DNA from: Halorussus halophilus
GTDB taxonomy: Archaea; Halobacteriota; Halobacteria; Halobacteriales; Haladaptataceae
DNA: 64,000 nucleotides
Reading direction: 5' to 3'
NCBI RefSeq assembly: GCF_008831545.1
Contig: NZ_CP044523.1
Location: 372,001 to 436,000 of the forward strand
The notes under the pieces: model-generated
Told to the model about the DNA's origin: nothing
The model's input: the letters and a program-made list of their open reading frames with translations, nothing else
Database searches by the model: none
Translations under genes and position numbers: made by a program
Part shown: positions 11,717 to 50,947 of the stretch, piece by piece
Layout: the number at the start of each line of letters is the position of its first letter
How positions within the stretch are numbered: position 1 is the first letter of the stretch

Positions 11717-12192
11717 ACGCGTCTGTTGAATTGATGAGTAATGAATCTTGACGTGTGTTTTGTACAGTTTCGTAGGTAATGTGCGAATATAGTTGGATAA
11801 TTATGGTTTCGGGGGCGACATCGATTCGGAGTAGAGTGTTCGAAGGAGTAGTGGAATCGACAGTAGACGGCGGTTTCGAAGTCATTCGTTCCACGTATTT
11901 AAGCAGAGGTCGTACACGACACGCTCCGCTCGTCGGCTTGCGTCGTGAGGTAGAAATAGGCCAGCACGAATTGGAAGTACGTGGTTCGCTTGGTCGTTTT
12001 CGTACTTTCCGAATTAAATACCATACTCAAGCATATGCATGACGTCGTTCGCTCACGATATCGCACGATTCGTGCGCTCTTTCATCGACCGCGAAAACGA
12101 GCCTCTGATTCTAAAACGGCCTGAATTCGTCGCAATTGCTTTCTATCTCTATCGGTCCATGGGGATACTTACTGACCGTAATTTCGGTGAGT
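11717..12192. other. Intergenic region with the first copy of a 39-bp repeat
   Basis: These 476 bp separate the ATP-grasp gene from the flippase-like gene. Apart from the repeat at 11922-11960, a TATA-like TATTTAA near 11896 and AT-rich DNA, I see no convincing gene; the short open frames here have no haloarchaeal codon bias. Composition becomes AT-richer from about 11720, which marks the edge of the glycan island. Confidence 0.5.
11922..11960. repeat. 39-bp repeat, left copy
   Basis: The segment CGCTCCGCTCGTCGGCTTGC plus the following 19 bases recurs at 17691-17729 with about four mismatches, in the same orientation. The two copies bracket the low-GC glycan cluster at 12.2-17.5 kb. They are candidate recombination or insertion borders. 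Confidence 0.7.
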
Positions 12193-13185
12193 ATGAATAG
12201 TTCAGATATAAATACTTCCCATCGAAATCACCGTCCGATGGACGACCGAGTGGCGACGATTCTACGCTTGGGTATCAGTGTGGCCCTGCTTACCTTCATT
12301 GTGAATTCCGTCGGCGTCGACAAACTCGTAACGAACCTCTCCAACGTCAGACCTAGCTTTCTATTAATCGCGACGACTCTCGCGGTCTTCAACGTTGCTC
12401 TCAGCGCGTACAAGTGGAAACTACTCCTCTTGATCAAGCAAATCGACCTCTCGTTTCGGGTCCTGTTCGTCTACTACTATATCGGACAGTTTTTCAACGC
12501 ATTCCTCCCGACGATGGTGGGAGGTGACGGCGTCCGTGCGTACTATCTGCAGCAAAATCACGGAGCGGGTCCCGACGCGGTTTCGTCGGTGTTTGTCGAG
12601 CGACTCACTGGTCTCCTGACCGTATTGGCTATCGGCGGCACTGCGACGCTGTTTGTTTCGAATCGCATCCCTACAGTAGTCGTGGTCGCTATCCTTCTCG
12701 TCTGCATCCCGGGGGCAACCGTGCTCGTCGCACTCCTCTTCACCGACTTCGGCCGAGATATGTTCGAACGGACTCTGTTCCGGGTCGAACTGTTTGACGT
12801 GGGCGACCGACTCGCGTCGGTCTATGATGCGGTCTACGAATATCGTACGGCACGACATATGCTCGTCCCTGTAATCGGCCTCTCGTTGCTATTTCGTCTT
12901 GTTCTCATCTTCAATAATTACGTCGTCGCCGTCGGTCTCGGAATGGAACTTCCCCTGGTATACTTCCTCGTGTTCATTCCCCTAGTCGAGGTTCTGTTGT
13001 TTCTTCCCGTCTCCATACAGGGATTCGGTGTTCGTGAAATGTCCTACGTCTATCTCTTCGGGTCGGTCGGTGCGGCGACTGGAACGGCCTTGACGCTGGC
13101 ATTAGTGATGCAACTGATACTCGGCGTGTTGAACAACCTCATCGGCGGTATCGTCTACGTCGGTAAAGACGACTACTCCTTGTAA
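12193..13185 (+). CDS. Flippase-like/AglD-type UPF0104 membrane protein
   Basis: The 330-residue protein is almost entirely hydrophobic, with about eight membrane segments. It matches the lysylphosphatidylglycerol synthase TM / UPF0104 family, also found as the C-terminal part of AglD. Typical landmarks are the first loop motif ALSAYKWKLLL, YYIGQFFNAFLPTMVGGDGVRAYYL (the family's F-N-x-x-L-P-x-x-x-G-G-D pattern), and LPVSIQGFGVREMSY near the C-terminus. It is thought to move lipid-linked glycan intermediates. The ATG at 12193 has a GGTGAG sequence just before it; an earlier in-frame ATG at 12136 would add a non-conserved leader. The gene overlaps the convergent sulfatase gene by 13 bp. Confidence 0.82.
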   Translation: MNSSDINTSHRNHRPMDDRVATILRLGISVALLTFIVNSVGVDKLVTNLSNVRPSFLLIATTLAVFNVALSAYKWKLLLLIKQIDLSFRVLFVYYYIGQFFNAFLPTMVGGDGVRAYYLQQNHGAGPDAVSSVFVERLTGLLTVLAIGGTATLFVSNRIPTVVVVAILLVCIPGATVLVALLFTDFGRDMFERTLFRVELFDVGDRLASVYDAVYEYRTARHMLVPVIGLSLLFRLVLIFNNYVVAVGLGMELPLVYFLVFIPLVEVLLFLPVSIQGFGVREMSYVYLFGSVGAATGTALTLALVMQLILGVLNNLIGGIVYVGKDDYSL

Positions 13186-14438
13186 CCGAGGTCAGCGAGC
13201 ATCTCTTCGGTCTCCGAATCGACCTCTTGTCGTCCGGTCTCCTCGAAGCGAACCAGCCATTCGTCGAGGTCGGCAGCGAGGTCCGTTCTGCGTTCTCTTT
13301 CTCGCTCGGATACGTCCTCCCGTTCGTGCGGGTCCGCTTCGAGGTCGTAGAGTCGCTCCTCGTCAGAATCGCGGTTTCGAACGAGTTTCCATCCGTCCTT
13401 TCGAACGGCGACCGCGTTGGCGAACTCCGGGTACGCCATCGCGAATACGCGCCTGTCGGTCTCGACGGGTCCGTCGTCGAAAAGCGGTTCTCCGGGGGCC
13501 TCTAATTGTTCGGCGTCCGCGAGCGAGAGCAGTGTCGGTAGAATATCGATGGTTCGAACTTGACGCTCGACGCCCCCGTCCGGGAGGGAGTCGTGGTCGA
13601 ACACCAGCGGGACGTGCAGCTCCTCGTCGTAGAGTGTTCGGCCGTGGCCGGTATAACCGTGGTCGTCGAGCGCTTCGCCATGGTCCCCGGTCAAGACGAT
13701 CAGCGTCTCTTCGCGTAGTCCGCGTGCTTCGAGTGCTTTCAGTAGTTCACCGACGAGTTCGTCCACGTGCATCATCGCAGCGGTGTACTCGTCGTGGTCG
13801 CCGAGCCACTTTCGCGGGGCGTTACGAGGCTCGTGCATGTCGAAGTAGTGGACCCACCCGAAGAACGGTGAGTCGGCACGTTCGAGGCCCTCGATGGCGT
13901 CGTCAGTGACGCTTCGTCCGGTTCGACAGTGTAATTGAATCAACCCGAGGTCTCGAAGCAGATTCTTGACGTTGTATCGCTGAGTACCCAGGTTCTTGAC
14001 CGCACCAAATATCGTGTTGAAGAGTTTTGTGTCGTATATACGGCTCAGTATCGGGTACAGCGTGTCGTACGAGGCATCGTCGAAATAGCGGTCGAACCCG
14101 CGACCGAGTTTCGAGTGTTCGTGATTGAGGTGATCGACACTGACGACGCCGAACGTGTCGTAGCCCGCTTCGCGGAACTTTTCGGCACCGACCGGCTTGC
14201 TCTCATCGAGGCCCCATCCGTTTTGCACGACCCCGTGAGCGAACGGATAGTCGCTAGTCATGAAGGAGGTGAGACTGGGGTCCGTCGTGTTCGCGACGGT
14301 GAACGCGGACTCGAAAGATGTGCCCGAGTTCTGGAGGGAGGCGAACGTCGGAACGAGTCCGGAGTCTATCGCTTCTCCGAACCGGTCAGCACGGAGACAA
14401 TCGATGCTGATCAGGAGAACGTTCTGAATTTCACTCAT
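13173..14438 (-). CDS. Sulfatase-fold enzyme with threonine at the nucleophile position
   Basis: This 421-residue protein belongs to the alkaline phosphatase/sulfatase superfamily. Metal-binding motifs are ISIDCLRADRFG (D13 and neighbours) and LTGDHGEALDDHGYTGHG in the second half, with a sulfatase-type C-terminus (RLYDLEADPHE). In true sulfatases the nucleophile lies in C/S-x-P-S-R. Here the aligned sequence is T52-D-P-S-L, so a formylglycine cannot form and the arginine is missing. A threonine nucleophile is normal in phosphoethanolamine and phosphoglycerol transferases of this fold, so a phospho-transfer role on surface glycans is plausible (inference). The gene belongs to the glycan cluster and its 3-prime end overlaps the flippase-like gene. 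Confidence 0.8.
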   Translation of the reverse strand: MSEIQNVLLISIDCLRADRFGEAIDSGLVPTFASLQNSGTSFESAFTVANTTDPSLTSFMTSDYPFAHGVVQNGWGLDESKPVGAEKFREAGYDTFGVVSVDHLNHEHSKLGRGFDRYFDDASYDTLYPILSRIYDTKLFNTIFGAVKNLGTQRYNVKNLLRDLGLIQLHCRTGRSVTDDAIEGLERADSPFFGWVHYFDMHEPRNAPRKWLGDHDEYTAAMMHVDELVGELLKALEARGLREETLIVLTGDHGEALDDHGYTGHGRTLYDEELHVPLVFDHDSLPDGGVERQVRTIDILPTLLSLADAEQLEAPGEPLFDDGPVETDRRVFAMAYPEFANAVAVRKDGWKLVRNRDSDEERLYDLEADPHEREDVSERERERRTDLAADLDEWLVRFEETGRQEVDSETEEMLADLGYKE

Positions 14439-14600
14439 TACAGCGATCTAGTTTATTCATTCGTTAAAACTGTTGATTATCGAAAGAGACGAATGGTGGC
14501 GGTTTCGGGCGTACTCACGTCGCACACTACCCCGTTCGCTCCGTGCCGACGACGTTCTTCTCGGCCCCATGCCAACAGAGAACAATTTCCGTCCGAAGAC

Positions 14601-16328
14601 TCATTCCGGTAATTCCACCAACACGGCCGTGACCCGACACCGAGTCCCTCTACTGCGCGAACGATTGATGACGATACTTCCGCCTCTTTCTACCGCTGTG
14701 TCGGCTAACGTTTGCTGATACTCGTTCAGTGGGCCACACGGATTAGAGAGATACAATAGATCTGTGCCCGTGAGTGGCTCGTTCGTCTCGTGTACCTGAA
14801 TGTCGGCCCGTACGGTTCTACTCTTGGCAGTATCTTCCGCTGCCGACGTGTTCACCCAGAGAACCGGCCAAACCTCGCCCTCACTGTACAGGACGCTCCA
14901 CCAGTAGTTTTCGAGACTCGCTACAGCGACGGTATCGTCCGACGCCGCCACCGCCGTTAGTTCCGTTATCGGGGCCTCTTTTGAGACGCGGTCATTCTGT
15001 CCAGCAAGGTACGCGTTGACTCCGCCGTTCGCCACCAGGGCTACTAAACCGAGAACAACGAGAAGATGGACCAACTTGTTCGCGTTGAGTCGGTTCGTTA
15101 CCGTCGCGTACCGCTGACCGAGCGGTTCATTCTTACCCCACTCGACGAGACGCGCGGCACCGACTCCGAATGTGAGCGTGACCGCGAAAAACAACGGAAA
15201 GACGTGGCGCGTTTGGAACGCACCGACCCAGCCAGCGTTGCGGAACGTGAGTGCGACGAGGTAGACCGCACCGATTCCGAGAACGTACACGTCCGCGGGC
15301 TTTCGACGTTTCGCCATCGCACCGATGCCGATGCAGATGATAACGGTGAGGAACAGCGTGATGCCGGTCCACCCACCGAAGAAAATCCAAAACGCGTCAC
15401 CGAGAAAGTTCTGTAACTTCTCGACGGTTCCGAGGACGTGTTTCTCTTTGTCGAACCCACGGAGATGCCACCAAAAGTCGAAGTATTCGTAGGCGACATA
15501 TCTGACGACCTTCTCCATAACTCCGTACGAATCCGGATCCACGAAGAGGGACGACACGGCTGTTCCAGAATCTGCGGAAGCGGTCGTCAGTATCTTCTGC
15601 AGCGGTCCGAAGACGAGATACAAGACTCCGACGACAAAGGGAGGCAGGACGTACAGTACTGTCGTCGTCGTCGGCACACTCAGGGCACGAAGCCGACTTC
15701 CTTCTACCGGTGTTCGAATCCGACTGTCGAGTTGGACGAACGCCGCCGTCAAAATGCCGTACAGAACTGCCGGGACGTACAGGAGATACGAGAAGGTTGC
15801 GGTGACGCCGGCGACTACGGACCAGAAAGGCGCGCCGTTTCGTTCACGACTCGTTCCAAGTGCGTACGTCGAAATCACGATGATACCGACCGCTGACGCT
15901 TCGGGGTACCCTTTCGCAGTCAATACCAGAAGCTTCGGATACAGCGCGTACAACGTCGTCGCGTACAGTGCCGCGCGTTCGTCGAAGAATCTCCGTGCTG
16001 CGGGATAAAACACGAGCACTGACACACACGAAACGATTAGCGAGAAGACGGTCACCGCGCGAACGCCGAGAAATGGGCTGGTTGGTACGTAGAACAGTGC
16101 GGAAAACAAGTCGTAGAACGGCATTCGGCTGGGTTTGTACCCCTGAAAGTTCCCTAAGTACGGCAGCAGTGGCTGTTTGAGTACCAAGAAGGTAGCAAAA
16201 TGCTTCCAGATAGGGTACATGACCGCCCAAAACGCGACTCGCAACGCGATTCCAGCGAGGACGACTCCGGACAAGATTCGATTCTCATCGAGTAGTGGAA
16301 CGATCGCTCGTAAGCGCGTGGAGGTCAT
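14601..16328 (-). CDS. Polytopic GT-C-like glycosyltransferase family protein
   Basis: The 575-residue protein has about ten to eleven hydrophobic segments and a C-terminal soluble domain of roughly 120 residues. The first extracellular loop contains a PSRMPFYDLFSALFY segment, and further loops carry YPKLLVLTAKGYPEAS. This layout is typical of GT-C/PMT-like (family 39) mannosyl- or glycosyltransferases using dolichol-linked donors. I see no unambiguous catalytic DE motif, so the assignment rests on topology and context: it is divergent to a dolichyl-phosphate-sugar synthase-like GT2 gene and lies in the same cluster as a flippase-like gene and a sulfatase-fold gene. Confidence 0.65.
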   Translation of the reverse strand: MTSTRLRAIVPLLDENRILSGVVLAGIALRVAFWAVMYPIWKHFATFLVLKQPLLPYLGNFQGYKPSRMPFYDLFSALFYVPTSPFLGVRAVTVFSLIVSCVSVLVFYPAARRFFDERAALYATTLYALYPKLLVLTAKGYPEASAVGIIVISTYALGTSRERNGAPFWSVVAGVTATFSYLLYVPAVLYGILTAAFVQLDSRIRTPVEGSRLRALSVPTTTTVLYVLPPFVVGVLYLVFGPLQKILTTASADSGTAVSSLFVDPDSYGVMEKVVRYVAYEYFDFWWHLRGFDKEKHVLGTVEKLQNFLGDAFWIFFGGWTGITLFLTVIICIGIGAMAKRRKPADVYVLGIGAVYLVALTFRNAGWVGAFQTRHVFPLFFAVTLTFGVGAARLVEWGKNEPLGQRYATVTNRLNANKLVHLLVVLGLVALVANGGVNAYLAGQNDRVSKEAPITELTAVAASDDTVAVASLENYWWSVLYSEGEVWPVLWVNTSAAEDTAKSRTVRADIQVHETNEPLTGTDLLYLSNPCGPLNEYQQTLADTAVERGGSIVINRSRSRGTRCRVTAVLVELPE

Positions 16329-16393
16329 TCAATTCACGCTCCGAAACTGAACTTCATGTAACTTCTTATCTCGATGGTTCTATAACCAACACG

Positions 16394-16402
16394 TTTTTAT
16401 TA
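16394..16402 (+). promoter_or_regulatory. TATA box of the GT2 gene
   Basis: TTTTTATTA lies 25-33 bp before the ATG at 16427 in the 98-bp divergent intergenic region. The spacing predicts a leaderless transcript and fixes the start codon. Confidence 0.55.
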
Positions 16403-16426
16403 ATAGCTTAGCAACCACTCGACCGA

Positions 16427-17479
16427 ATGTGCCCGGACACTGTCGATTCGCATCGTACCTCCACAGAGGGCGAAACCTCCGATTCGATGCAAGTTTCTGT
16501 CGTCATCCCCGCCTACAACGAGCGAGGGAACCTCGAAGACCTTCTAACCGAGATAGCCGACGTATTCGAAGCCGACGAGATGGCTCGCTATACCCCATAC
16601 GAAGTCGTAATCGTCGACGACGGTAGTACGGACGGGACGCGACAGCAGTTACGTGACCTGATTGAGGAACACTCGTCTCTCCGCGTTGTCTTTCTAACTC
16701 GGAACTTCGGTCAGAGTGCTGCGCTCGCTGCTGGCATCGACAACTCTCTCGGCAAGTACATAATCACGATGGACGCCGATTTACAGAACGACCCTGCGGA
16801 CGTTCCTCGTCTCCTTGCGAAGTTACGGAAGGGGTACGACTGCGTGAGTGGCTGGCGACGAGACCGGGACGACCCACTCTCGAAAACGATCCCCTCGAAA
16901 ATTCAGACGTATCTCGCAACGTTGACCGGGCCGAATATCCACGACTTCGGTTGTACGCTCAAAGCGTACCGCGGAGATACTCTCCGTTCTATCGACATCT
17001 ACGGGGAAGGCCATCGGTACATCCCTGCGAAACTCCACAACAAAGGCTATCGAATTACCGAACTGGAAGTGAACCACCGACCACGGGAACACGGTGAAAC
17101 CAAGTACGGATTCCAACGCCTCATCCGCGGCTTCGTCGATTTACTCTTTCACATCTTCTGGAATCGATACTCAACGCGACCGTTGCACATCCTCGGCGGA
17201 CTCGGCGTGTTGATGGTCTGCACTGGCGGACTCATCGGTGCTCACGCAGTCGTGAGCAAGTACGCGTTCGGTACCGAACTGCTTCCACGGACCCCACGTC
17301 TCATTCTGACCGTCGCTCTCATCCTGTTCGGCTTCCAGATGTTGATGTTCGGTCTCCTGACGGAGACGTTGGTGAAACTATATTACGAAGACAACGACAG
17401 CAAGGGATATCGAGTCCAACAGACGATATCTGCGAACGAATCGGACCGACCGGTGCTTACTATCGGAGACTCCCGGTGA
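16427..17479 (+). CDS. GT2 glycosyltransferase, polyprenyl-phosphate sugar synthase type
   Basis: The 350-residue protein transfers a sugar from a nucleotide donor, most likely to dolichyl phosphate. The GT-A domain starts SVVIPAYNERGNLEDLL. It has VVIVDDGSTDGT (nucleotide-binding aspartates), ITMDADLQNDP (the metal-binding DxD), and a late WNRYSTRPLHILG segment leading to two C-terminal transmembrane helices (about 255-280 and 285-320). That membrane hairpin is typical of DPM1/GtrB-type enzymes. It probably supplies the lipid-linked sugar used by the divergently transcribed GT-C-like protein. About 20 residues of acidic leader precede the first strand. Confidence 0.85.
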   Translation: MCPDTVDSHRTSTEGETSDSMQVSVVIPAYNERGNLEDLLTEIADVFEADEMARYTPYEVVIVDDGSTDGTRQQLRDLIEEHSSLRVVFLTRNFGQSAALAAGIDNSLGKYIITMDADLQNDPADVPRLLAKLRKGYDCVSGWRRDRDDPLSKTIPSKIQTYLATLTGPNIHDFGCTLKAYRGDTLRSIDIYGEGHRYIPAKLHNKGYRITELEVNHRPREHGETKYGFQRLIRGFVDLLFHIFWNRYSTRPLHILGGLGVLMVCTGGLIGAHAVVSKYAFGTELLPRTPRLILTVALILFGFQMLMFGLLTETLVKLYYEDNDSKGYRVQQTISANESDRPVLTIGDSR

Positions 17480-17795
17480 CGAACTATCGCCTGCCTGTTT
17501 GCGGGTCTGTCAACGAATTCTTTCCGGTGTGAGTCCTTCCATAACGTCCGCGTTCCTCGATTACAGTACTGACCACTTCGTTCGACGTTTCGTCGAACAC
17601 GGGACTCCGACTGGAGATTGTGATTTGCGGTTTCACGTTGAACTGGTGACCCGAATCGCACTACTTGACTCCAGTCCCAACGTGGCTACCCGCTCCGCTC
17701 ATCGGCTTGCGTCGTTAGGTAGAAAATGGAGCCCTACTTACCCTATCCGGAACTCCTCGCTGTCGCTCGGTGTTCGTTGAATGCGGGAAAGGTAG
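17480..17795. other. Intergenic region with the second 39-bp repeat
   Basis: These 316 bp between the GT2 gene and the tRNA contain the right repeat copy (17691-17729) and no supported gene. Short open frames on both strands lack codon bias. Confidence 0.5.
17691..17729. repeat. 39-bp repeat, right copy
   Basis: This is the second copy of the element at 11922-11960, in the same orientation. It ends about 65 bp before the 3-prime end of the tRNA-Pro gene. tRNA genes are common integration targets, so the location is suggestive. Confidence 0.7.
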
Positions 17796-17868
17796 TGGGC
17801 CGGCGCGAATTCGAATCGCGGTTACGGCCACCCGAAGGCCGAAGGATACCAAGCTACCCCACCGGCCC
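17796..17868 (-). tRNA. tRNA-Pro (anticodon CGG)
   Basis: The minus strand folds into a complete 73-nt cloverleaf. The 7-bp acceptor stem pairs GGGCCGG with CCGGCCC; the D arm is GGGT-AGCTTGGT-ATCC. The anticodon stem CGGCC/GGCCG encloses the loop TTCGGGT with anticodon CGG, and the T arm is CGCGA-TTCGAAT-TCGCG, with discriminator A. CCA is not encoded. It reads proline codon CCG. The gene marks the right side of the glycan island. Confidence 0.96.
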
Positions 17869-21500: not shown

Positions 21501-22421
21501 ATGCCAGGCTCAGAGGTTCACGATGAGACGGTCCTCATCACGGGAGGTGCAGGGTTCATTGGAAGTCACATTGCAGATGCGCTGACTGAACACAACGATA
21601 TTCGAATCCTAGATAACTTCTCGACAGGCTCTCGTGAGAACGTCCCAGCCACTGCAACCACTATCGAGGGCGACATTCGAGATGAGAAAACGCTCGCGGC
21701 GGCGATGGATGGTGTCGATCTCGTGTTTCACCAAGCGGCCCTCGTCAGCGTCCAACAATCTGTCGAACAACCCGAGGTGAGCCATGCAATCAACGTAGAG
21801 GCAACTATCGAAGTCCTCGAACACGCCCGAAAAGAGGATGCACGCGTCGTCGCCGCCTCGAGTGCAGCGATTTATGGCGAACCTCAGACGGTTCCAGTCA
21901 CTGAATCCGACCCGAAAACGCCGACCTCACCGTATGGCGTCGATAAGCTCTCACTTGATCACTATCTCCGATTGTATCACGACCTCTACGACCTCGAAAC
22001 GGTTGCACTCCGATATTTCAACGTCTATGGCCCGCGACAAACAGCGGGTGACTACAGTGGCGTAATCAGTATTTTCAAAGAACAGGCGATGAATGGCGAT
22101 CCGATCACGGTGAATGGGGATGGTGGGCAGACTCGGGACTTCGTGCATGTCGACGATATCGTCCACGCAAACCTGCGGGCGGCAACGACCACACACGTTG
22201 GCGACGCCTACAATATCGGCACTGGGTCCAGCGTCACGATCCAAGAACTTGCAGAAGCGATTCGCGACGTCACGAATTCTGCATCGGACATCGTTCATAC
22301 CGATCCACGACCGGGAGATATCCGACACAGTTGTCCTGATATCACGAAAGCCCGGGAGCAACTCGAATACTCTCCGAGTGTCTCACTCGAAGATGGACTC
22401 GAAACGCTCGTTCAACTTTAG
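21501..22421 (+). CDS. NAD-dependent sugar-nucleotide epimerase/dehydratase (GalE-like)
   Basis: The 306-residue extended short-chain dehydrogenase has the NAD loop TGGAGFIGSHIAD near residue 14, the AALVSVQQSVEQP segment, an SSAAIYGE strand with the active-site serine region, and the SPYGVDKLSLD motif holding the catalytic Tyr and Lys. RYFNVYGPRQ and GDGGQTRDFVHVDD complete the UDP-glucose 4-epimerase-like pattern. Its exact sugar is uncertain. Base composition is visibly lower in GC than the cetZ region, suggesting acquisition with the CHAT island that follows. Another epimerase with the same architecture lies at 37348-38334, so the window has two related genes. Confidence 0.85.
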   Translation: MPGSEVHDETVLITGGAGFIGSHIADALTEHNDIRILDNFSTGSRENVPATATTIEGDIRDEKTLAAAMDGVDLVFHQAALVSVQQSVEQPEVSHAINVEATIEVLEHARKEDARVVAASSAAIYGEPQTVPVTESDPKTPTSPYGVDKLSLDHYLRLYHDLYDLETVALRYFNVYGPRQTAGDYSGVISIFKEQAMNGDPITVNGDGGQTRDFVHVDDIVHANLRAATTTHVGDAYNIGTGSSVTIQELAEAIRDVTNSASDIVHTDPRPGDIRHSCPDITKAREQLEYSPSVSLEDGLETLVQL

Positions 22422-22877: not shown

Positions 22878-25001
22878 TCAGAGCGTTTCAACGTTGATAT
22901 CGCCACTCCAGCGGAGTTGGCCATCAATCCGAACTGGAATATTCTCAAGGCCTAGGAATTGCGCTAACTCCTGTTTCGACATCTCAAATGTGTCGAGACT
23001 GCCTGAAGAGAGGTAATAATCCTTATTCCCATCGATAATTGGGATCACCAGGCTCCCCATTCCACGGTTTGTCGTTGGATACGTTTTGTATTCAACTTGA
23101 TATTCACCTTCGTTTGATGTTATTTCACAGAGATTCGGTGTGCCGTTTTCTGGCTGTGTGATCGACACTCCGCCATCTCCGATGACGATGTATTTCCCAC
23201 CGACGATACTCTCCTGTCGTGCGATATTGAGCGCAGCTCGAAGCGGGAACCCAGTGTTGAGCAAGCGAGCCATTGTTCGACCAATCCGCACCGCACCACT
23301 GTTGATGACATCACTAAGCGTGACCACACCCCCGATACTCCCTGCCGCAAGGAGGCCCATCCCTTGTGTATACGACTGACACGCATTCAGCAGAAACGCA
23401 TCGACACTTACCGACTCGAGGGATGTTGCGTCGAATGCCCCATCCACACAGTCGAAACCATTGTCGTCGATATGGCCGATATAATGGAAGAAATCAGCCG
23501 GAGTAGTCAGGACGTCCCGAAGTTCACTCTTCGTCAGGTCATGTTTGACTGACACTGTGAACGGCAATTCATCACGTGACCCATAGACTTCGTTGACGAT
23601 GTCCTGCTCTTCGTTCATTGCACCATCATTACAAACGACCGTGATGTCGATATCTCCAGTCGTCGGTGACCGATTTAAGCGATGTTGGAACGCCTCAGCA
23701 GTCGCTTTACTCGCTCCAATTGGCGTTCCTTCCCCGACCCACGTCTGTTCAAGTGACTCGGAGGCTTCGGGTTGCACATAGGACTGAGATGCTGTCGAGG
23801 ATGCACCTGCACTTCGCGTGAATGCATCGTCACGGAGGAAGTCCGCAGCAGCCGTCGATTGCACTTCCGTTTCGGCCACTGAGGTCGCTGCTGGTGTCTG
23901 AACGACAGCAAGATCATTCACCACGAACGGGAGTGTCTCAACACTCGTGGGGGTTGGTTCGACGTGCGTCGTCAGCTTCCACTCTGGCAACTGCTCTTCG
24001 ATGGCCGAAAACGGAACGGACAGATACGATTCGAGCTGGTCAGCAAGCGGTTGTTCATACAGGGCCGCGAAATCGAGATCGATTGTCGACTCGAGTGTCT
24101 GGCGTTCGTGCAAATCCACGTTGTAGTAGCCTTCAGTTCGAGTCAGGCAGTCGAGGAAGAACGTTTGTTTGAGAACGCGCTCGACTTCGTGTTCAAAGCC
24201 ACGGGCAGAGGTAAGTCGATGCTCGAACCCTGCTTCAGTGACGATTTTAGGTGTCTCCCCTTCGACGACTGTTGCTCCAAGATAGTAGGCGAGTGGCGCA
24301 GCAACATAGATTGAAGCATATTCTGCGGGGAGTTCGATACGAACTCCGGTATCCGGGGTTTCTATTCCAGTTGGAATGTCGAGCTTGTCACCTATCTCGA
24401 CCGTCGGGGGGTGACCACGGAGTGTGGGATAGGAGCGTTCACAACTCGTCGTTTTTAGTGCAGACCCGAACGTGGACACAGCCTGCATCATCGCCTCGGG
24501 GTCCGGTGGTACCGTGATTGTCGCAGCGGGCCGGTCATGGTGGGACCGTCCGCCGACTAAGACCTGCGTTTGCTCTTCAAACTCAAAATGCATCTGTACA
24601 GTGTCCGAACGGACGGTCAGCGGCCCTTTGACCTTGAAGTAGAGTTTAATCGGTGCACCTAGTTCAATACTGTACGTTCCGTCTGGGAACTCCTCATATG
24701 CAAAATGCTCTGTTTCTTCAAGCATCTCCCCTGTGTCAGAATCACGGATATAGACCCCAACCACAGTTGGGAGCGTAATTGCGTCAGTAGTGATGGTAAC
24801 GCTAGCGTCAACCGGAAACAGGAAACTCTCAGACGATACTGGCGTTGGCGACACAGAGTCCGGGGTAGAGAGGGAGTAGCGGTGGCGTTCGATAGAATCT
24901 ATAACGGTCACACCACTCCCGTCTGACGGTGTTTTGAAAGAAAGAGATCGGGCGTGATCGTCACCCGAATCCATAGTGTGGTTAGAACGAAAGTCGGTCA
25001 T
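22878..25001 (-). CDS. CHAT-domain caspase-like protease
   Basis: The 707-residue protein ends in a CHAT (caspase HetF-associated with TPRs) domain. The catalytic histidine is H510 in FHYIGHIDD and the nucleophile is C541 in LLNACQS, followed by GGVVTLSDV and TMARLLNTGFPLRAAL, typical of CHAT enzymes. The N-terminal 450 residues carry beta-rich segments and no TPRs or membrane anchor that I can see. Archaeal CHAT proteases are unexplored; bacterial relatives act in gasdermin-type and CRISPR-linked cell-death systems. A DUF7504-like gene lies 106 bp upstream on the same strand, and a 44-residue membrane peptide gene abuts it convergently. Lower GC than the chromosome suggests transfer. Confidence 0.85.
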   Translation of the reverse strand: MTDFRSNHTMDSGDDHARSLSFKTPSDGSGVTVIDSIERHRYSLSTPDSVSPTPVSSESFLFPVDASVTITTDAITLPTVVGVYIRDSDTGEMLEETEHFAYEEFPDGTYSIELGAPIKLYFKVKGPLTVRSDTVQMHFEFEEQTQVLVGGRSHHDRPAATITVPPDPEAMMQAVSTFGSALKTTSCERSYPTLRGHPPTVEIGDKLDIPTGIETPDTGVRIELPAEYASIYVAAPLAYYLGATVVEGETPKIVTEAGFEHRLTSARGFEHEVERVLKQTFFLDCLTRTEGYYNVDLHERQTLESTIDLDFAALYEQPLADQLESYLSVPFSAIEEQLPEWKLTTHVEPTPTSVETLPFVVNDLAVVQTPAATSVAETEVQSTAAADFLRDDAFTRSAGASSTASQSYVQPEASESLEQTWVGEGTPIGASKATAEAFQHRLNRSPTTGDIDITVVCNDGAMNEEQDIVNEVYGSRDELPFTVSVKHDLTKSELRDVLTTPADFFHYIGHIDDNGFDCVDGAFDATSLESVSVDAFLLNACQSYTQGMGLLAAGSIGGVVTLSDVINSGAVRIGRTMARLLNTGFPLRAALNIARQESIVGGKYIVIGDGGVSITQPENGTPNLCEITSNEGEYQVEYKTYPTTNRGMGSLVIPIIDGNKDYYLSSGSLDTFEMSKQELAQFLGLENIPVRIDGQLRWSGDINVETL

Positions 25002-25107
25002 GTTATTTACCCTATTTCAGACAAGCGGCAAAAAGCTATTGCTATTTGGAAATGGTAGTGTTCATATTACATACTGTTAGTCAGTGAACCACGAACGGCA
25101 ACCGAAA

Positions 25108-25842
25108 CTACAGTCCGGAGAGCCATAACCAATCAGAAGTTATCTCAGCATCCTGTAAGTGAAATCGTTGCTGGACCTCGTTATGAGCAACCCGGAGTTC
25201 GAGGACGATGTCGAACAGGTCGGCAAAGACTTGGACCTCCTCGGACGTCCGGTCAATTGGGAGATGGAAATGCCCCATCGCGTTGACGCTACGAATTCGA
25301 CCAATGAGCACGTGCAGAAAACGGAACACGTCCTCGTGTGGATACTCGCTCAAAAGTGCTTCCAGTGAGTCGAAACAGACACGCAGTTCTGCAGGTGCAA
25401 GCCCATCAGCGATACTCTCGAACTCAGCAATTTCCTCTGAAATCGTAATCCCGAGTCCCGACAACTGATTGCCGGGTACCTGTACTTCGGGAATTTGGCG
25501 GTGGTCTGTCTGTGAGGCGACAGCAGCACTTCGTTCCTGTGCGGTCCAGGTCACGAGTCTTGCGGTCTCTGGGGTAAGCTGATCATGACTTGGCAGTCGG
25601 TCAGTTATCGACGGGAGGTCGTTGTCTGTCGTGACGAACAGACGACGACGTTGCGCTGCGGTGGTATCGCCGAGTAGATTTGAACAGGCCCGAGCGTATT
25701 CTTGATCTGGAAGATTACCGACGACAAGCAGCGATGCTCCTCGCTGCTTCAATTGAGAGAGCGCTGAAGCGAACTCGTGGTGTTCTTGTTCAGTATGAGA
25801 TTCCTCAAAACGGCGATAATCCATTATATCCGGCAAAAGCAC
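25108..25842 (-). CDS. DUF7504-like protein upstream of the CHAT gene
   Basis: The 244-residue acidic protein has a RecA/KaiC-like start, with a strand SLLVVGNLPDQEYARACSNL where a nucleotide loop would be but without the GKT of a working P-loop. LARLVTWTAQERSAA, LSGLGITISEEIAEF and the RVCFDSLEALLSEYPHEDVFRFLHVLIGRIR region match haloarchaeal DUF7504 proteins, which look like degenerate signal-transduction ATPases. It lies upstream of and in the same direction as the CHAT gene, 106 bp apart, so co-expression is likely. A sensing or regulatory role for the protease is inference. Confidence 0.7.
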   Translation of the reverse strand: MLLPDIMDYRRFEESHTEQEHHEFASALSQLKQRGASLLVVGNLPDQEYARACSNLLGDTTAAQRRRLFVTTDNDLPSITDRLPSHDQLTPETARLVTWTAQERSAAVASQTDHRQIPEVQVPGNQLSGLGITISEEIAEFESIADGLAPAELRVCFDSLEALLSEYPHEDVFRFLHVLIGRIRSVNAMGHFHLPIDRTSEEVQVFADLFDIVLELRVAHNEVQQRFHLQDAEITSDWLWLSGL

Positions 25843-26058: not shown

Positions 26059-28431
26059 ATGACAGACGTACGTGAGGCCACCGACGACCTCCTCTCGGAG
26101 AAGCCGGGGGTCGAATCGGACCTCCGGGACGTTCTCTCGGTGGACGAGCGCGCCGATGGGTGGACGTTCGACGATGTGCCGCTCGATTCGGGGACGTTCG
26201 GCGAACTGGTTTCTCGGAATATCGTCTCGAAAAACGGTAACGGCGAGTACGAAGTGACGAACCGGAGTGTCGTTCGAGCGAGTCTCAACGGCGAATCTCC
26301 TACCGAAACTGGTTCCAAAGAATCGACCTTCGAGTTCTCGCTCCCCGACGTATCCAGAGAGACCGGCGTCGCGCTCGGCGCGGCCCTGGCGTTCCTCGTC
26401 CTGATGCGGTCGTACATCTACCCCAACATCTTCCGATCTGATGGCGGCGTTCTCTTGTCTTCGAACGACCCCTACTACTACCGCTACTGGGTCGATCAAC
26501 TCGCCGTCGAGGCGACAGGTATCTTCGACTTGAGTGTACTCTCTGGCTTGCCGGGTGCTGTTGCGAAGGGAGAACCGCTCACCGTGGCGGTACTATGGTG
26601 GTGGACGAATCTATTAGGTGGTGCTGACGCTTCTGGAGCGGTGTTGGCGTGGTATCCCGTCGTCTCGGGGGTCATCGTCGGCTGTCTCGTCTACGTTCTA
26701 GCGACGAAGGTGAGTGACGACCGTCGTATCGGAATTGCGTCGGTCTTGCTGTTGGCGACGATTCCTGGCTTCGCGTACAAGACCGGTCTCGGATTCGCAG
26801 ACCACCACGCGTTCGACTACCCGTGGCTCGCGCTGACTGCGCTGGCACTCGTCCTGATTTCTGACGTTTCTGAGACAGACCTTCGAGAACCGAAGACGTG
26901 GGTCGGAGCAGTCTTACTCGGAATCGCTGTCGCCGGGCAAGTACTTTCGTGGGAGGCCGGACCACTGCTCATCGGCGCGCTCGGATTCTACGTCGCAGTG
27001 CGAACGCTAGCAGACGTTCGAGCAGACCGCTCCGCACTCCTGCAGAGTGCACCGATTCTCGGTGGTCTGGCCGTGGCGTCGGTGTTGACCCACCTCGCTC
27101 ACACCGGATTCGGCTGGCACACCGACGTCGTTGCGTACTCACCTGCGTTGTTACTCGGCGGCGTACTCGGTGTCTCGCTCGTCGCGGAAGCAATTCGACG
27201 CGCAGGAATGCCACCTGCTGTACTCGGTGTGACGGAGGTCGCAGGTGTGTTGGTCGGGGTAGTGGCGCTCCAGACGTTTCTGCCGGCGTATGGAGCGAGA
27301 CTCACAGATCGACTAGGGTACCTCGTCGGGAAAACTGGTCCTGCAGAGACGCAGTCGCTGATGAAAGGCGCACTCGGCTTTTTGCTGGGACCACCGCTCG
27401 AACTCGGCTTTGCGTGGTTCGTCGCGCTTCCAATCGTCGTATGGGGTCTCGTCTACGGGTATCAGAACCGCCACTCGGGATGGCTCGTCGTGACGACTTA
27501 CGCCGCATACTTCCTTACGCTGTCGCTATTCCAGCGTCGGTTCTCCGGAGAGCTGTCACCGTTCCTCGCTATCTGTGCGGGCGTCGGCTTCGTATGGTTC
27601 GCCGCGAAGATGGAGATGGTCGAGACGCCGGGTTTCCTGCGCGACGCCGGAGGCCGTCCAGACCAAGAGGCGAATCGCGTCTCGCTTCCGTCGCTCGCGA
27701 CGCTCGACAGAGGGACCGTCGCGCCCTTACTTGTGCTGTTCCTGTTGGTCTCTAGCGTCGGCGTCGTTCAGACGGGCGTCAAGCACGAACAGGTCGGTAT
27801 CCGTGGCGAGAAGTACCACGCTGCACAGTCGATAGATTCGTACGCCGAGGAACGTGGACTGGAGTACCCCGAAAACTACGTGCTGAGCAAGTGGGGACGT
27901 AACCGGGTGTACAACTACTTCGTGAATGGGGAATCGAGATCTTACCGGTATGCCGAGCAGAACTACCGCACCTTCCTTGCTTCCAAGAAGCCACAGAAGC
28001 AGTACCAGAAATTGAATAAGCGTGTTGGATTCGTAATCACGAAAAACCTCAACTTACGTCGTGCTCCCGACAAGAAGATGATGTTCGTTCGGTTGCACAA
28101 GCGACTCGGCGCGGGCGGCTCCGGGTCAGGTCGAGCACTCGCTCACTACCGAGCTATCTTCGTCAGCGACGACAAGTCAATCAAGGCGTTCGCACTCGTT
28201 CCCGGCGCGAACGTTACAGGACAAGCACAAGCCGGGGAGACAGTCACGCTCTCGAAGCGCGTGAAGATAGATGGTGCGACGTTCACCTACGAACGGACCG
28301 TTTCGGTCAACAAGGACGGTACGTATTCGGTGACGGTTCCGTATCCCGGCACGTACACCGTCGGCGATAACACAGTTAAGGTGCCCGAGTCGGCAGTGCA
28401 GAACGGCGGCAACGTCAGTGTCGGCGCGTAA
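26059..28431 (+). CDS. STT3/AglB-like oligosaccharyltransferase with degenerate WWDYG motif
   Basis: The 790-residue protein has a soluble N-terminus of about 95 residues, roughly a dozen membrane segments (about 100-555) and a C-terminal extracellular domain. STT3 landmarks are SSNDPYYYRYW, whose aspartate fits the first catalytic metal-binding motif, and GFADHHAFD in the position of the second acidic loop. The canonical WWDYG, which binds the acceptor sequon, is replaced by SKWGRNRVYNYF. I infer a divergent glycosyl/oligosaccharyltransferase whose acceptor site differs from AglB. A TATA-like TTTAAG about 30 bp before the ATG supports the start. The N-terminal region (DLRDVLSVDERADGWTFDDV) looks like a small winged-helix-like domain, unusual for STT3 proteins. 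Confidence 0.78.
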   Translation: MTDVREATDDLLSEKPGVESDLRDVLSVDERADGWTFDDVPLDSGTFGELVSRNIVSKNGNGEYEVTNRSVVRASLNGESPTETGSKESTFEFSLPDVSRETGVALGAALAFLVLMRSYIYPNIFRSDGGVLLSSNDPYYYRYWVDQLAVEATGIFDLSVLSGLPGAVAKGEPLTVAVLWWWTNLLGGADASGAVLAWYPVVSGVIVGCLVYVLATKVSDDRRIGIASVLLLATIPGFAYKTGLGFADHHAFDYPWLALTALALVLISDVSETDLREPKTWVGAVLLGIAVAGQVLSWEAGPLLIGALGFYVAVRTLADVRADRSALLQSAPILGGLAVASVLTHLAHTGFGWHTDVVAYSPALLLGGVLGVSLVAEAIRRAGMPPAVLGVTEVAGVLVGVVALQTFLPAYGARLTDRLGYLVGKTGPAETQSLMKGALGFLLGPPLELGFAWFVALPIVVWGLVYGYQNRHSGWLVVTTYAAYFLTLSLFQRRFSGELSPFLAICAGVGFVWFAAKMEMVETPGFLRDAGGRPDQEANRVSLPSLATLDRGTVAPLLVLFLLVSSVGVVQTGVKHEQVGIRGEKYHAAQSIDSYAEERGLEYPENYVLSKWGRNRVYNYFVNGESRSYRYAEQNYRTFLASKKPQKQYQKLNKRVGFVITKNLNLRRAPDKKMMFVRLHKRLGAGGSGSGRALAHYRAIFVSDDKSIKAFALVPGANVTGQAQAGETVTLSKRVKIDGATFTYERTVSVNKDGTYSVTVPYPGTYTVGDNTVKVPESAVQNGGNVSVGA

Positions 28432-35172: not shown

Positions 35173-36465
35173 TTACCAAGTAAGCCCTTCGTAGGTGATG
35201 CCGTCACGCCGCTCGATGATTCGGCGCCCATCCACTACGACGGCGTCGGCCATTGCGTCGAATTCTTGGTCTAGAGCTGCGAACTCGTCCCAGTCCGTAA
35301 CGACGACTGCGCCATGGGCGTCTTCGAGTGTCGCTGCTGCCGAGTTCACGTATTCTATGTCGGGGAAGTGTTCCCGCATGTTTTCGGCTGCGACGGGGTC
35401 GTACGCGACGACCTCGGCGTTGCGGTCGAGTAGTCCCTCGATGACGGGAATCGCTCGGGAGTTACGAACGTCGTCGGTGCCGGGTTTGAACGAGAGCCCG
35501 AGGACGGCGACTTGCTTTCCGGCGACATCGACGTGCGAGTCGAGCAGGTCGAGTAGGCGTTTTGGCTGTTTGTCGTTGACTTCGACGGCGGCCTCTAACA
35601 GGGATGGCTCGTACTCCACAGCACGGGCGGCGGCAATGAGTGCTGCAACGTCTTTCGGGAAGCAACTCCCTCCCCACCCGACGCCCGAGCGGAGGAATTG
35701 CTCGCCGATACGGTCGTCCAGACCGATGGCGTCGGCGACTTCGTAGGCGTCCACATCGTACTCCTTGCAGACGTTCCCGAGTTCGTTGACGAGACTGACC
35801 TTCGTGGCGAGAAAGGCGTTGTTCGCGTACTTAATCATCTCCGCTTCGCGGGTACCCGTCTCGACGACGTCGGCATCGGAGTGGTCGAGCAGTGGTTCGA
35901 AGACGGCGTGTAGTCGCTCGGTGGCCGTCTCGGAGTCGGTCCCGAAGACGACTTTGTCGGGGTGCAGGAAGTCTTCGACTGCGCTCCCCTCGCGGAGGAA
36001 TTCCGGGTTCATCGCGACGTGGAGGTCCTCGCCGAGTGCTTTCCCAGATTCTTCTGCGAGAATCGGCGCGAGCGTCTCTTCGGTCGTCCCCGGGACGACT
36101 GTGGATTTGACGACGACGACGTGGTCGCCGTCTTTCTCGGCGAGGGTCGCGCCCAGCGAGCGGGCACCCGCTTCCATCGCGCCGAGGTCGATACTGCCGT
36201 CGTCTCTGGAGGGCGTCGGCAGCGCAAGGAAAGTCACGTCGGTCTCGCGGATGGTGTCGTAGTCGGTCGTCGCGCGAAGACGATCACCGCCGTACTCCGC
36301 GACGAGGTCGTCCAGTCCCGGTTCGTGAATCGGTGCCCCGCCGTCGTTGATTCGTGCGACGATACTTTCGTCGATGTCCACGTTCGTCACGTTGTGGCCG
36401 AGGTCGGCGAAGCAGGCGGCGACCGTCGTTCCGACGTAGCCGCTGCCGACGATGCTGAGATTCAT
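35173..36465 (-). CDS. aglM: UDP-glucose 6-dehydrogenase AglM
   Basis: The 430-residue enzyme oxidises UDP-glucose twice to UDP-glucuronate with NAD. The N-terminal Rossmann domain begins [19 protein letters not shown] (residues 2-20). The middle segment contains [20 protein letters not shown] and K212 (IKYANNAF). The catalytic nucleophile is C268 in [12 protein letters not shown], and the C-terminal domain has [14 protein letters not shown]. In Haloferax volcanii AglM works with AglF to build hexuronic acids for S-layer N-glycosylation; the divergent aglF here (88 bp away) keeps the same pairing. A role for this copy in N-glycosylation is therefore strongly suggested. Confidence 0.92.
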
Positions 36466-37347: not shown

Positions 37348-38334
37348 ATGCAAATACTCGTTACTGGTGGAGCGGGCTTCATCGGCGGTCATCTCGCCGA
37401 AGGGTTCGCTCGTGACGGCCACGACGTCGTGGTCCTCGATAGCTTCGAGCCATTCTACGACCTCGGCATCAAGGACCACAACGTCGAAGCAGGGCGAAAC
37501 GCGGCTGAAGATGGTGGTGGCAGCTACGAACTCGTTCGTGGTGACATCCGTGACGACGATTTGGTCGCAGAACACGTGACTGACGCTGATTACGTCTTCC
37601 ATCAAGCCGCGCAAGCGGGCGTCAGAAGTAGCGTCGAGGAGCCGGAGAAGGTGACCGAGATTAACGTCAATGGAACGTTGAACGTGCTGGAGGCCGCCCG
37701 GAACTCTGACACTGAGCGCGTTGTCGTCGCGAGTTCGTCGTCGGTGTACGGCAAGCCCGAGTATCTCCCTTACGACGAAGACCATCCGACGACGCCTGTC
37801 AGCCCCTACGGCGCGTCGAAACTCGCTGAGGAGCAGTACACGCGCGTCTACAACGAAGTGTACGGGCTGCCGACCGTCGCACTGCGGTACTTCACCGTCT
37901 ACGGGCCGCGGATGCGCCCGAACATGGCGATCAGTAACTTCGTCTCACGGTGCATGAACGACGAACCGCCGGTCATCTATGGCGACGGCGAGCAAACTCG
38001 TGACTTCACGTACATCGACGACGTGCTTCGGGCGAACTCGACGTTGCTCGACACCGACGCCGCAGACGGCGAAATTATGAACATCGGCAGTACAGACAAC
38101 ATCGCCATCAAGACGCTCGCCGAAGAGATTCGAGACCAGATCGCACCTCAACTAGACTTGGAGTACGACGAGCGACATGATGCGGACGCCGAACACACGC
38201 ACGCCGACATCTCGAAAGCGAACGAACGCATCGGATACGAACCGACGACCACGATTCGTGAAGGCGTCGAACAGTTCACGGAGTGGTACGCGGAGAACCG
38301 CGACTGGTACGAACCACTCGTCCGCAACTCGTAA
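37348..38334 (+). CDS. NAD-dependent sugar-nucleotide epimerase (GalE/UDP-glucuronate epimerase-like)
   Basis: The 328-residue enzyme belongs to the extended SDR family. It starts MQILVTGGAGFIGGHLAEGF with the NAD loop at residues 6-14, has the HQAAQAGVRSSVEEP segment, the SSSSVYGKPEY strand and the SPYGASKLAEEQYTRVY motif with the catalytic tyrosine and lysine. GVRSSVEEP in the substrate region and DGEQTRDFTYIDDV point to UDP-glucuronate or UDP-glucose 4-epimerases. Downstream of aglF, it probably makes UDP-galacturonate or UDP-galactose for glycans. It is the last chromosomal-type gene before the element at about 38.4 kb. Confidence 0.87.
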   Translation: MQILVTGGAGFIGGHLAEGFARDGHDVVVLDSFEPFYDLGIKDHNVEAGRNAAEDGGGSYELVRGDIRDDDLVAEHVTDADYVFHQAAQAGVRSSVEEPEKVTEINVNGTLNVLEAARNSDTERVVVASSSSVYGKPEYLPYDEDHPTTPVSPYGASKLAEEQYTRVYNEVYGLPTVALRYFTVYGPRMRPNMAISNFVSRCMNDEPPVIYGDGEQTRDFTYIDDVLRANSTLLDTDAADGEIMNIGSTDNIAIKTLAEEIRDQIAPQLDLEYDERHDADAEHTHADISKANERIGYEPTTTIREGVEQFTEWYAENRDWYEPLVRNS

Positions 38335-49184: not shown

Positions 49185-49216
49185 TGGTGAACGAATTCAG
49201 TGTTTTGCTGGAGTAT

Positions 49217-49241
49217 GATTTCATTCGAAACCTGGTGTGGG
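49217..49241 (+). repeat. ORB-like repeat 4
   Basis: TTTCATTCGAAACCTGGTGT core followed by GGG. Confidence 0.75.
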
Positions 49242-49324
49242 TCTGTTTTACTACCAGATTGGTCGCGTCTACTTTCCTGTATAATCATAAGGGGACGTCC
49301 GATTCCAGACAACATCCTGCAGAT

Positions 49325-49347
49325 ATTTCATTTGAACTACGGTGTCG
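49325..49347 (+). repeat. ORB-like repeat 5
   Basis: ATTTCATTTGAACTACGGTG then TCG; a weaker copy. Confidence 0.65.
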
Positions 49348-49387
49348 AACCTTCGAACCTCCGCCCACCCCGATATCGATCTCCAAA

Positions 49388-49439
49388 ATCATTTGAAAGA
49401 TGGTGTTCTTCAACACCGATTTCATTTGAAGAACGGTGT
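49388..49439 (+). repeat. ORB-like repeats 6 and 7
   Basis: ATCATTTGAAAGATGGTGT at 49388-49406 and GATTTCATTTGAAGAACGGT at 49418-49437. Repeat 7 also has ACACC on its left side, so it reads as a dyad. Confidence 0.7.
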
Positions 49440-49545
49440 ATATCCTATTCGAAGACTGCGAATTATCCGTTTTAGGCATCTGGGAATATACAAGATTCCA
49501 CGTTTTCGATCACTCTACCGTGCGCAGATAAGAAAGAACTAAGAC

Positions 49546-49564
49546 GATTTCATTTGAAACATGG
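49546..49564 (+). repeat. ORB-like half repeat 8 at the orc1 start
   Basis: GATTTCATTTGAAACATGG ends four bases before the orc1 ATG. Binding by Orc1 here would autoregulate its own gene. Confidence 0.6.
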
Positions 49565-49567
49565 CTT

Positions 49568-50947
49568 ATGACCACAGACTCGGACCCACAAACCCTCGGT
49601 GAATACGCTACCAACCGTGGGGCCGTCTCCTATTCACGAACTGAACAGCGGGATGACCCACTCTCAGTTCTTGACGAAGAAGACCCGATATTTGCCGATG
49701 AAAGCCTCCTCCGTATCGACCACATTCCAAACCAAGACAAAATTGTTGGTCGAAATCAGCAAATTGAAACGGTTGCTCGCCGCCTCAAACCGACACTCAA
49801 TGGTGGGTCAGGGAAAGGAACACTTCTGTTGGGTAAGTCCGGATCTGGAAAGACGCTCGTCACACGATACGTAAGTCGAGAAGTCGACCAGCGAGCAACA
49901 GAGAACGACACTCGAATTGGTCGTGCAATTGTTGACTGTGGCCAACGCCGCTCGGAAACCCAGACAGTCATTACTCTCGCAAAATCACTCAACGACCCTA
50001 GCCAAACTGGGGTTTCAGTCCCCTCGTCTGGCATTGCCACTGGTGCATACTACGACCGACTGTGGAAGATAATAGACGACCTCTACGATGCCGTGATCGT
50101 GGTCCTCGACGAAATTGATCGCCTTGCCCCCAACGAGAATGTGGATCAACCGATCCCGCCAGAAGAAGCCGACGACAGCAAACTCTTGATGCAACTTTCG
50201 CGTGCTGGTGAGGAAGTCGATATCGACGCTGGCATGACGGTTATCGGTATTAGTAACGATCTCAAATACGGTGATCGGCTCGATACGCGTGTGGAAAGTT
50301 CGTTCTCGCCGGACGAAATTGTGTTTCCAGCCTACGACGCGAACCAACTTGGCGATATTCTGCGCCGTCGACGAGACGCCTACCGTGATGGAGTACTTGC
50401 CGACGATGTAATTCCACTCTGTTCTGCTTTCTCCGCGCAAGAACATGGCGATGCGCGACGGGCAATCGACCTATTCCGGCTCGCTGGTGAAATTGCCCGC
50501 GACGAAGACGCCGCGAAAGTGACCGAACCACACGTCCGATCAGCAAACGACGACGCCGAAGTAACTCGTATTCGGGACTTAATCCGTGGCTGTCCAACGC
50601 AGGCGAAAATTGCCATTGCCGCGCTCGCTGCGATGGACGAGTTCACCGACCAGTCATACTTCCGTGCGACTGAGATGTATCGTGTCTATCGAGCGTTCGC
50701 GGAGTCAATTGATGCAGACGTTCTCGGCCAGAAGCGAATCACTGACCAGCTTCGAGAGTATGAAACGCTGAAAATCATCGACATGGAGAGAACGAGCGAT
50801 GGATACCGTGAAGGCACATATCTAAAACTCTCATTGCTTGACGATTCCAGTTTGATTCTGCAGTCTGTTGGTCTCGATAGTCGATTAGAGCAGATTCCGA
50901 TCGGCAGTGGAATGAAACAGGAAATCGCACGGCTTGTTGAGTCCTAA
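49568..50947 (+). CDS. Orc1/Cdc6 replication initiator of the element
   Basis: This 459-residue AAA+ initiator binds origin repeats and recruits the helicase. It has the Walker A GKSGSGKT at residues 89-96, Walker B VVLDEIDRL (about 178-186), a sensor-1 region GISNDLKYGDRLDTRVESSF, sensor-2 GDARRAIDLFRLAGEIA and a C-terminal winged helix (SYFRATEMYRVYRAFAE). The adjacent ORB-like repeats confirm its job. Gene and repeats are on the lower-GC element, so this is an origin separate from the main chromosomal ones. Confidence 0.93.
   Translation: MTTDSDPQTLGEYATNRGAVSYSRTEQRDDPLSVLDEEDPIFADESLLRIDHIPNQDKIVGRNQQIETVARRLKPTLNGGSGKGTLLLGKSGSGKTLVTRYVSREVDQRATENDTRIGRAIVDCGQRRSETQTVITLAKSLNDPSQTGVSVPSSGIATGAYYDRLWKIIDDLYDAVIVVLDEIDRLAPNENVDQPIPPEEADDSKLLMQLSRAGEEVDIDAGMTVIGISNDLKYGDRLDTRVESSFSPDEIVFPAYDANQLGDILRRRRDAYRDGVLADDVIPLCSAFSAQEHGDARRAIDLFRLAGEIARDEDAAKVTEPHVRSANDDAEVTRIRDLIRGCPTQAKIAIAALAAMDEFTDQSYFRATEMYRVYRAFAESIDADVLGQKRITDQLREYETLKIIDMERTSDGYREGTYLKLSLLDDSSLILQSVGLDSRLEQIPIGSGMKQEIARLVES

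Follow-up and report, generated by a model that had tools for sequence, protein, structure and literature searches.

An STT3-like protein of 790 residues (STT3L) is encoded, from ATG to stop, at positions 26059–28431 of the forward strand of the 64,000-nucleotide stretch of Halorussus halophilus DNA analysed here, which is referred to as the window. The gene was delimited from the open reading frame list and Pfam, and all STT3L features described below lie on the same strand. Two Pfam families match the protein above cut-off: STT3 at residues 124–317 (E 1e-7) and AglB_L1, the AglB long peripheral domain, at residues 716–783 (E 3.9e-11). A sub-threshold Lipocalin_4 hit is the sole other match. 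The AF2 model, computed with a 47-row alignment as input, has a mean pLDDT of 90.9 and a pTM of 0.84. Its best PDB matches are the structures of Archaeoglobus fulgidus AglB (AfAglB), with a Foldseek E of 9.7e-24 for 7e9s and a superposition on 3waj over 594 residues (Z 36.6, rmsd 4.1); eukaryotic STT3 and PglB follow. STT3L is a real gene, and its product is predicted to have the STT3/AglB fold. The membrane part (residues 100–579, positions 26356–27795) aligns to the AglB/STT3 transmembrane region in both alignment and model. The AglB_L1 beta domain is retained at residues 716–783 (positions 28204–28407) by Pfam, and 3wai superposes on model residues 630–789 with Z 13.4.

The N-terminal 95 residues (positions 26059–26343) form a small domain in the AF2 model, with helices and a two-strand wing in the order H-H-H-E-E-H. 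In canonical AglBs, 23–40 residues precede the alignment column that holds residue 96, versus 95 in STT3L. An STT3-like protein at this place, with its membrane part kept and a soluble domain added at the N-terminus, had been proposed in a preliminary description of the DNA, and all three points are borne out. The domain is assigned to no Pfam family, and a Foldseek search restricted to it produced no match with E below 0.001; MarR, MotA and PhiH1-repressor-like proteins are among the weak ones. It is presumably cytosolic, and a winged-helix-like fold is our guess from the order of its elements alone. A second STT3L copy in another genome (L193:1605-3707, G295) has no such domain, retains KWGRNR and lies directly adjacent to a gene of PF02397, the WbaP-type phosphoglycosyltransferase family. 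The domain is thus not needed for the STT3L family.

Several genes around STT3L belong to sugar metabolism. Neighbourhood comparison identified three recurrent partners: a UDP-glucose/GDP-mannose dehydrogenase (UGD; 35173–36465, reverse strand), a sugar nucleotidyltransferase (PF00483; 36554–37300, forward strand) and an NAD-dependent sugar epimerase/dehydratase (37348–38334, forward strand). A second epimerase/dehydratase of this type was found with Pfam at 21501–22421 (forward strand). The only PF02397 gene of the genome starts at C1:437311, 1.3 kb past the window end. After it come genes for sulfatases, GT4-type glycosyltransferases, an asparagine synthase, a MurJ/MATE flippase, a Wzy-like protein whose PF14296 match (E 5.9e-6) falls slightly short of the cut-off, and DUF4330; two epimerase-like genes and one GT2-like gene of the cluster were assigned by eye. 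In Halorussus salinisoli (L036) the arrangement is compact and reads STT3L-UGD-nucleotidyltransferase-epimerase-PF02397-GT4. The window keeps this gene order, with sugar ABC-transporter genes after STT3L.

Between the window epimerase and PF02397 lies a block that spans 38400–64000 and continues to about C1:437100 (L139 1-3127). It contains genes for a NrS-1 primase-like domain, Fic, a weak HerA-type match, Cdc6/Orc1, TFB, a TrbL-like protein and an AAA_10 ATPase. This block is likely an integrated conjugative/replicative element that splits the polysaccharide cluster at this point. No att-like repeat longer than 10 bases was found between the two stretches compared at the element ends. Five imperfect 25-base repeats at 49216–49569 lie immediately upstream of the Cdc6/Orc1 gene (49568) and are perhaps an origin of the element. 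On the other side, between the second epimerase and STT3L, two divergent genes occupy 22878–25842. One encodes a DUF7504 protein and the other a 707-residue protein without any above-cut-off Pfam match, the C-terminal half of which presumably resembles CHAT/caspase-like proteins. At 12136–17868, beside tRNA-Pro, lie further glycan-related genes (LPG_synthase_TM, sulfatase, PMT_2 and GT2).

The acceptor motif and the catalytic positions

In the alignment, the place of WWDYG is taken by KWGRNRVYN at residues 611–619 (positions 27889–27915). Residues 608–625 of STT3L read VLSKWGRNRVYNYFVNGE, and the corresponding stretch of the canonical AglB of the same genome reads VMSWWDYGHWITVQGE. Among 90 distinct STT3L members, Trp612, Arg616 and Asn619 are invariant (90/90 each), and residue 615 is Asn in 86 and Ser in 4. 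Position 613 is Gly in 72/90, position 614 is Arg in 43/90, and position 611 is Gln, Glu, Arg or Lys in most members. The invariant core of the family is W-x-x-[NS]-R-x-x-N. A pattern test over whole sequences found WWDYG in none of the 90 members, neither in the window protein nor in the other 89, and WWDYGH is present in all 30 canonical haloarchaeal AglBs examined. The replacement of the motif, noted in the preliminary description, is therefore confirmed. The same description had asked about conservation of W-G-R-N within a clade; a conserved clade does exist, but its shared core is the looser pattern given above. Twenty STT3-type open reading frames were also collected from regions chosen mostly outside the order: 18 have WWDYG or WWDDG, one is the second STT3L (L193), and the remaining one, on a short contig (L185), has neither motif.

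The Ser/Thr pocket of AglB is described as built by WWDYG together with the DK/MI motif (PMC8342417). At the aligned place, the STT3L consensus has no conserved D/K/M/I pattern in the sequence alignment, and the DK pattern after WWDYG is a feature of the canonical AglB copies. To judge from these alignments, both motifs of the Ser/Thr pocket are gone across the whole STT3L clade. The flanking pattern VxS-x-W ... GE is common to STT3L and canonical AglB. These flanks and the same fold would fit an ordinary sequon-dependent AglB in which WWDYG had merely been misplaced or misread, but this is barely credible. It is contradicted by the alignments, with WWDYG in 0/90 members, and by the separate clade with support of 100; in addition, the NCBIfam archaeal oligosaccharyltransferase model TIGR04154 scores 139 bits on STT3L, far below its curated cut-off of 450.

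The catalytic side is conserved. A profile of 47 STT3L members, searched against the PDB, retrieves AfAglB with E 4e-33; AfAglB residue numbers were counted along this alignment. Asp137 (positions 26467–26469; 90/90) in the first DXD motif, which reads NDP, corresponds to the AfAglB metal ligand Asp47, and the preceding Asn136 is also found in 90/90. Asp248-His249-His250 (positions 26800–26808) corresponds to Asp161-His162-His163 in the second DXD motif. The two acidic motifs had been called kept in the preliminary description, which was an understatement. Glu430 (positions 27346–27348; 89/90) aligns with Glu360, the TIXE glutamate, and Arg494 (positions 27538–27540; 90/90) aligns with Arg426 on the lipid-phosphate side. 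In the window protein the TIXE region reads GPAE, with the glutamate kept and the Thr and Ile not. For AglB, Asp47, Asp161 and His163 are given as metal ligands, Glu360 as the TIXE glutamate, and Arg426 is placed near the phosphate site (PMC8342417). His348 and Trp353 are two further invariants that are private to the STT3L family.

The second acidic motif shows variation. The Asp248 column contains Asp in 79 and Glu in 11 of the 90 members, and the His250 column contains His in 78, Arg in 11 and Gln in 1, which indicates that the metal site of STT3L is not strictly kept. A subset that includes L093 and L100 has E-H-R instead of D-H-H, a changed metal ligand set. This variation in 11/90, a long branch in the tree and an N-terminal domain that has no assigned role, and that could be a regulatory part, are what an inactive relative kept as scaffold or regulator would present. 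Such a protein is very improbable here. Asn136, Asp137 and Arg494 (90/90) and Glu430 (89/90) are maintained over deep divergence, with 46 aligned members only 35–71% identical to the window protein, and one copy dropped the N-terminal domain and kept the rest. The retention of the catalytic positions in 90 divergent members argues that STT3L is no decaying copy.

Distribution of STT3L and its association with PF02397

Of 392 genomes of the order that were searched for STT3L, 334 have a match with an E value of 0.001 or lower, and 207 were counted as carriers, with a best match below 1e-40. When 294 genomes of the phylum were searched with a profile, scores above 700 bits were confined to the order, and the best score outside it was 111 bits. 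In a 77-row tree made with a quick method, a branch with support of 100 separates the 44 STT3L rows from the 17 canonical haloarchaeal rows (support 100) and 16 others; the long branch noted above belongs to STT3L in this tree. By tree and profile scores, the STT3L family is one clade limited to this order. A literature search that left phylogenies of AglB evolution outside its scope found no description of this clade.

Canonical AglB scores above cut-off in all 40 chosen genomes, 37 of which carry STT3L, and STT3L is therefore an extra gene. Replacement of AglB by STT3L was considered and rejected on the same count. In its own genome (4.45 Mb), the canonical AglB with GVMSWWDYGHW lies 350 kb from STT3L.

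PF02397 was found in 248 of the 392 genomes. STT3L and PF02397 occur together in 197 genomes, STT3L alone in 10, PF02397 alone in 51 and neither in 134, as counts that ignore kinship. The only kinship-aware comparison was made within one genus (g7; 29 genomes among the matches listed), where PF02397 is present in 15/15 STT3L carriers versus 2/14 non-carriers. The genes are also close. Places for both were available in 90 genomes among the matches listed, with 80 pairs on one contig; the median distance in these pairs is 8.9 kb, with 29 pairs within 5 kb, 43 within 10 kb and 64 within 25 kb. For canonical AglB in 24 genomes, 16 have it on one contig with PF02397, and the distance is at least 115 kb in all 16. 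In two genomes that have two STT3L genes (G176 and G295), each STT3L has a PF02397 gene next to it, and the genome holds at least two PF02397 genes in all. In a survey of 66 distinct STT3L neighbourhoods, based on crude gene calls, the genes within 10 kb include PF02397-type in 33, sugar epimerase in 32, nucleotidyltransferase in 26, GT4 in 23, UGD in 21 and a DUF4330 cluster, identified by resemblance to L194:4751-5242, in 13.

DUF4330 is present in 180/392 genomes. Among PF02397 genomes it occurs in 160/197 with STT3L versus 12/51 without (kinship ignored). Among the matches listed, 71 genomes have DUF4330 and STT3L on one contig, and in 43 of these the two are no more than 25 kb apart. The DUF4330 protein (L194:4751-5242, C1:457751 in the H. 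halophilus genome, and relatives) is a candidate partner or acceptor of STT3L. DUF4330 is also present in Synechococcus, a control genome.

Wzy_C shows a different distribution. Among PF02397 genomes, it is found in 122/197 with STT3L (mean 0.79 copies) versus 43/51 without (mean 2.65), a difference with p 0.0025 when kinship is ignored; the H. halophilus genome itself has no Wzy_C match. This pattern would be expected if STT3L were a polysaccharide polymerase that joins lipid-linked repeat units, with a glycan as acceptor, in place of Wzy. We consider such a role improbable: its own cluster has another Wzy-like protein, the PF14296 match, most STT3L genomes also hold Wzy_C, and the p value takes no account of kinship. 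With the genes so often co-existing, the case for STT3L as a simple stand-in for Wzy_C is weak.

A possible role in surface-polysaccharide attachment

The fold, the conserved catalytic positions, the loss of the Ser/Thr-pocket motifs, the clade and the genomic coupling were computed, and from them we infer the activity of STT3L, its donor, the order of steps and an acceptor other than the standard sequon. The most economical reading of the sequences would be that the donor side and the chemistry of AglB were retained in STT3L while its acceptor side was altered. The loss of both pocket motifs would make the acceptor something other than an Asn sequon, and together with the position of STT3L among surface-polysaccharide genes it suggests that these sugars are attached to something else. 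We regard it as an evenly poised proposition that STT3L is an active membrane en-bloc glycan transferase of STT3/AglB descent, which serves a WbaP-started surface-polysaccharide pathway. The idea in the preliminary description that the acceptor, or the class of polymer transferase, may be a different one is partly supported: it fits the pocket loss with the catalytic positions kept and the PF02397 coupling, but neither acceptor nor reaction can be read from the sequence.

In the proposed pathway, the neighbouring UGD, nucleotidyltransferase and epimerases would make sugar nucleotides, and the PF02397 enzyme would load a sugar-1-phosphate onto polyisoprenyl phosphate to give a diphosphate-linked sugar. 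Phosphoglycosyltransferases are described as the first step of Wzx/Wzy pathways (PMC12802240). Glycosyltransferases would then extend the glycan, the MurJ/MATE-type flippase would turn it outward, and the Wzy-like protein may polymerise it. With a flippase and a Wzy-like protein in its own cluster, the final transfer is the step left without an enzyme, hence the term ligase for STT3L. STT3L would hold the lipid-linked glycan via the metal site (Asp137, Asp248 and His250) and Arg494 and transfer it to an acceptor held near Glu430; this acceptor would be read by the new W-x-x-N-R-x-x-N pocket and not as Asn-X-Ser/Thr.

STT3L combines features of several known systems. It shares the GT-C fold, the AglB_L1 beta domain, both acidic motifs, the TIXE glutamate and the phosphate-side arginine with AglB (A. 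fulgidus 3waj, 5gmy and 7e9s; TIGR04154). Unlike AglB, it has no WWDYG and DK motifs, has an extra N-terminal domain, forms its own clade and is linked to PF02397. PglB reads a protein sequon with a WWDYG pocket. The fold of STT3L is also like that of Campylobacter PglB (3rce, 5ogl and 6gxc; Z 26.3–27.1), but this pocket is absent. As the last step of a Wzx/Wzy-type pathway, WaaL and PglL (PF04932, Wzy_C) move a lipid-diphosphate-linked glycan en bloc onto an acceptor that is not a sequon. The job proposed for STT3L would be analogous, and its genomic place within a WbaP-initiated polysaccharide pathway is similar, which bears on how it may work and not on family membership; STT3L belongs to another protein family and has no PF04932 match in Pfam. 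With a WbaP-type start, the donor would be a diphosphate-linked glycan, the type that PglB is described to use, whereas AfAglB uses monophosphate donors (PMC8342417).

Some observations do not sit easily with a ligase. Asp248 is Glu and His250 is Arg in 11/90 members each, 10 of the 207 carriers have no PF02397 match, and only 33 of the 66 neighbourhoods have PF02397 within 10 kb. Any polysaccharide gene may co-occur with PF02397, as Wzy_C does. Moreover, the conserved Asp137 and Glu430 fit an Asn acceptor, since a twisting of the Asn carboxamide is proposed for their counterparts in AglB (PMC8342417). Through this retained pair, the main rival is a second protein N-oligosaccharyltransferase that still acts on Asn in a different or looser sequence context, with an arginine-bearing pocket whose +2 site may be filled by an acidic residue or stay empty. 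The kept AglB_L1 beta domain agrees with this rival, as does an N-glycan made independently of AglB that is described for Hfx. volcanii grown in low salt (PMC10384203). In the control genome of this species TIGR04154 has a match but PF02397, Wzy_C and DUF4330 have none, and with PF02397 missing there the low-salt pathway is probably another matter. Against the rival, STT3L has neither of the two motifs from which the +2 Ser/Thr pocket is built, and its gene partners are polysaccharide genes. An Asn acceptor in another context is on balance unlikely, though it deserves serious weight.

Returning to the ligase, STT3L, the WbaP-type initiator and DUF4330 might constitute a module by which archaea attach long surface polysaccharides to an acceptor that is not a sequon, with an oligosaccharyltransferase turned polysaccharide ligase; we put this forward tentatively, and with less than even confidence. 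The STT3 family is chiefly associated with a single reaction on a single sequon. A clade of this size, with the catalytic positions kept and the acceptor pocket replaced, would show how the STT3 fold can be re-aimed. If the module exists, it would provide an STT3 counterpart of WaaL/PglL and a second extracytoplasmic glycan attachment beside AglB in one cell. STT3L would also be a candidate for a missing archaeal step, the finishing or anchoring of WbaP-started lipid-linked surface polysaccharides. The absence of PF02397, Wzy_C and DUF4330 matches from the control genome of Hfx. volcanii could explain how the pathway came to be overlooked.

The published name Agl23 of Haloarcula hispanica was considered for STT3L and rejected, as Agl23 is presented as a putative flippase in PMC11182771, where Agl22 is a glycosyltransferase. 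For Har. hispanica, S-layer glycans of both the N- and the O-linked type and an acidic exopolysaccharide of unknown pathway are reported (PMC9943897, PMC5467301). Several Haloarcula species carry STT3L, among them Har. vallismortis, Har. argentinensis and Har. amylolytica, and their relative Har. hispanica can be manipulated genetically, with gene deletions described in PMC5467301.
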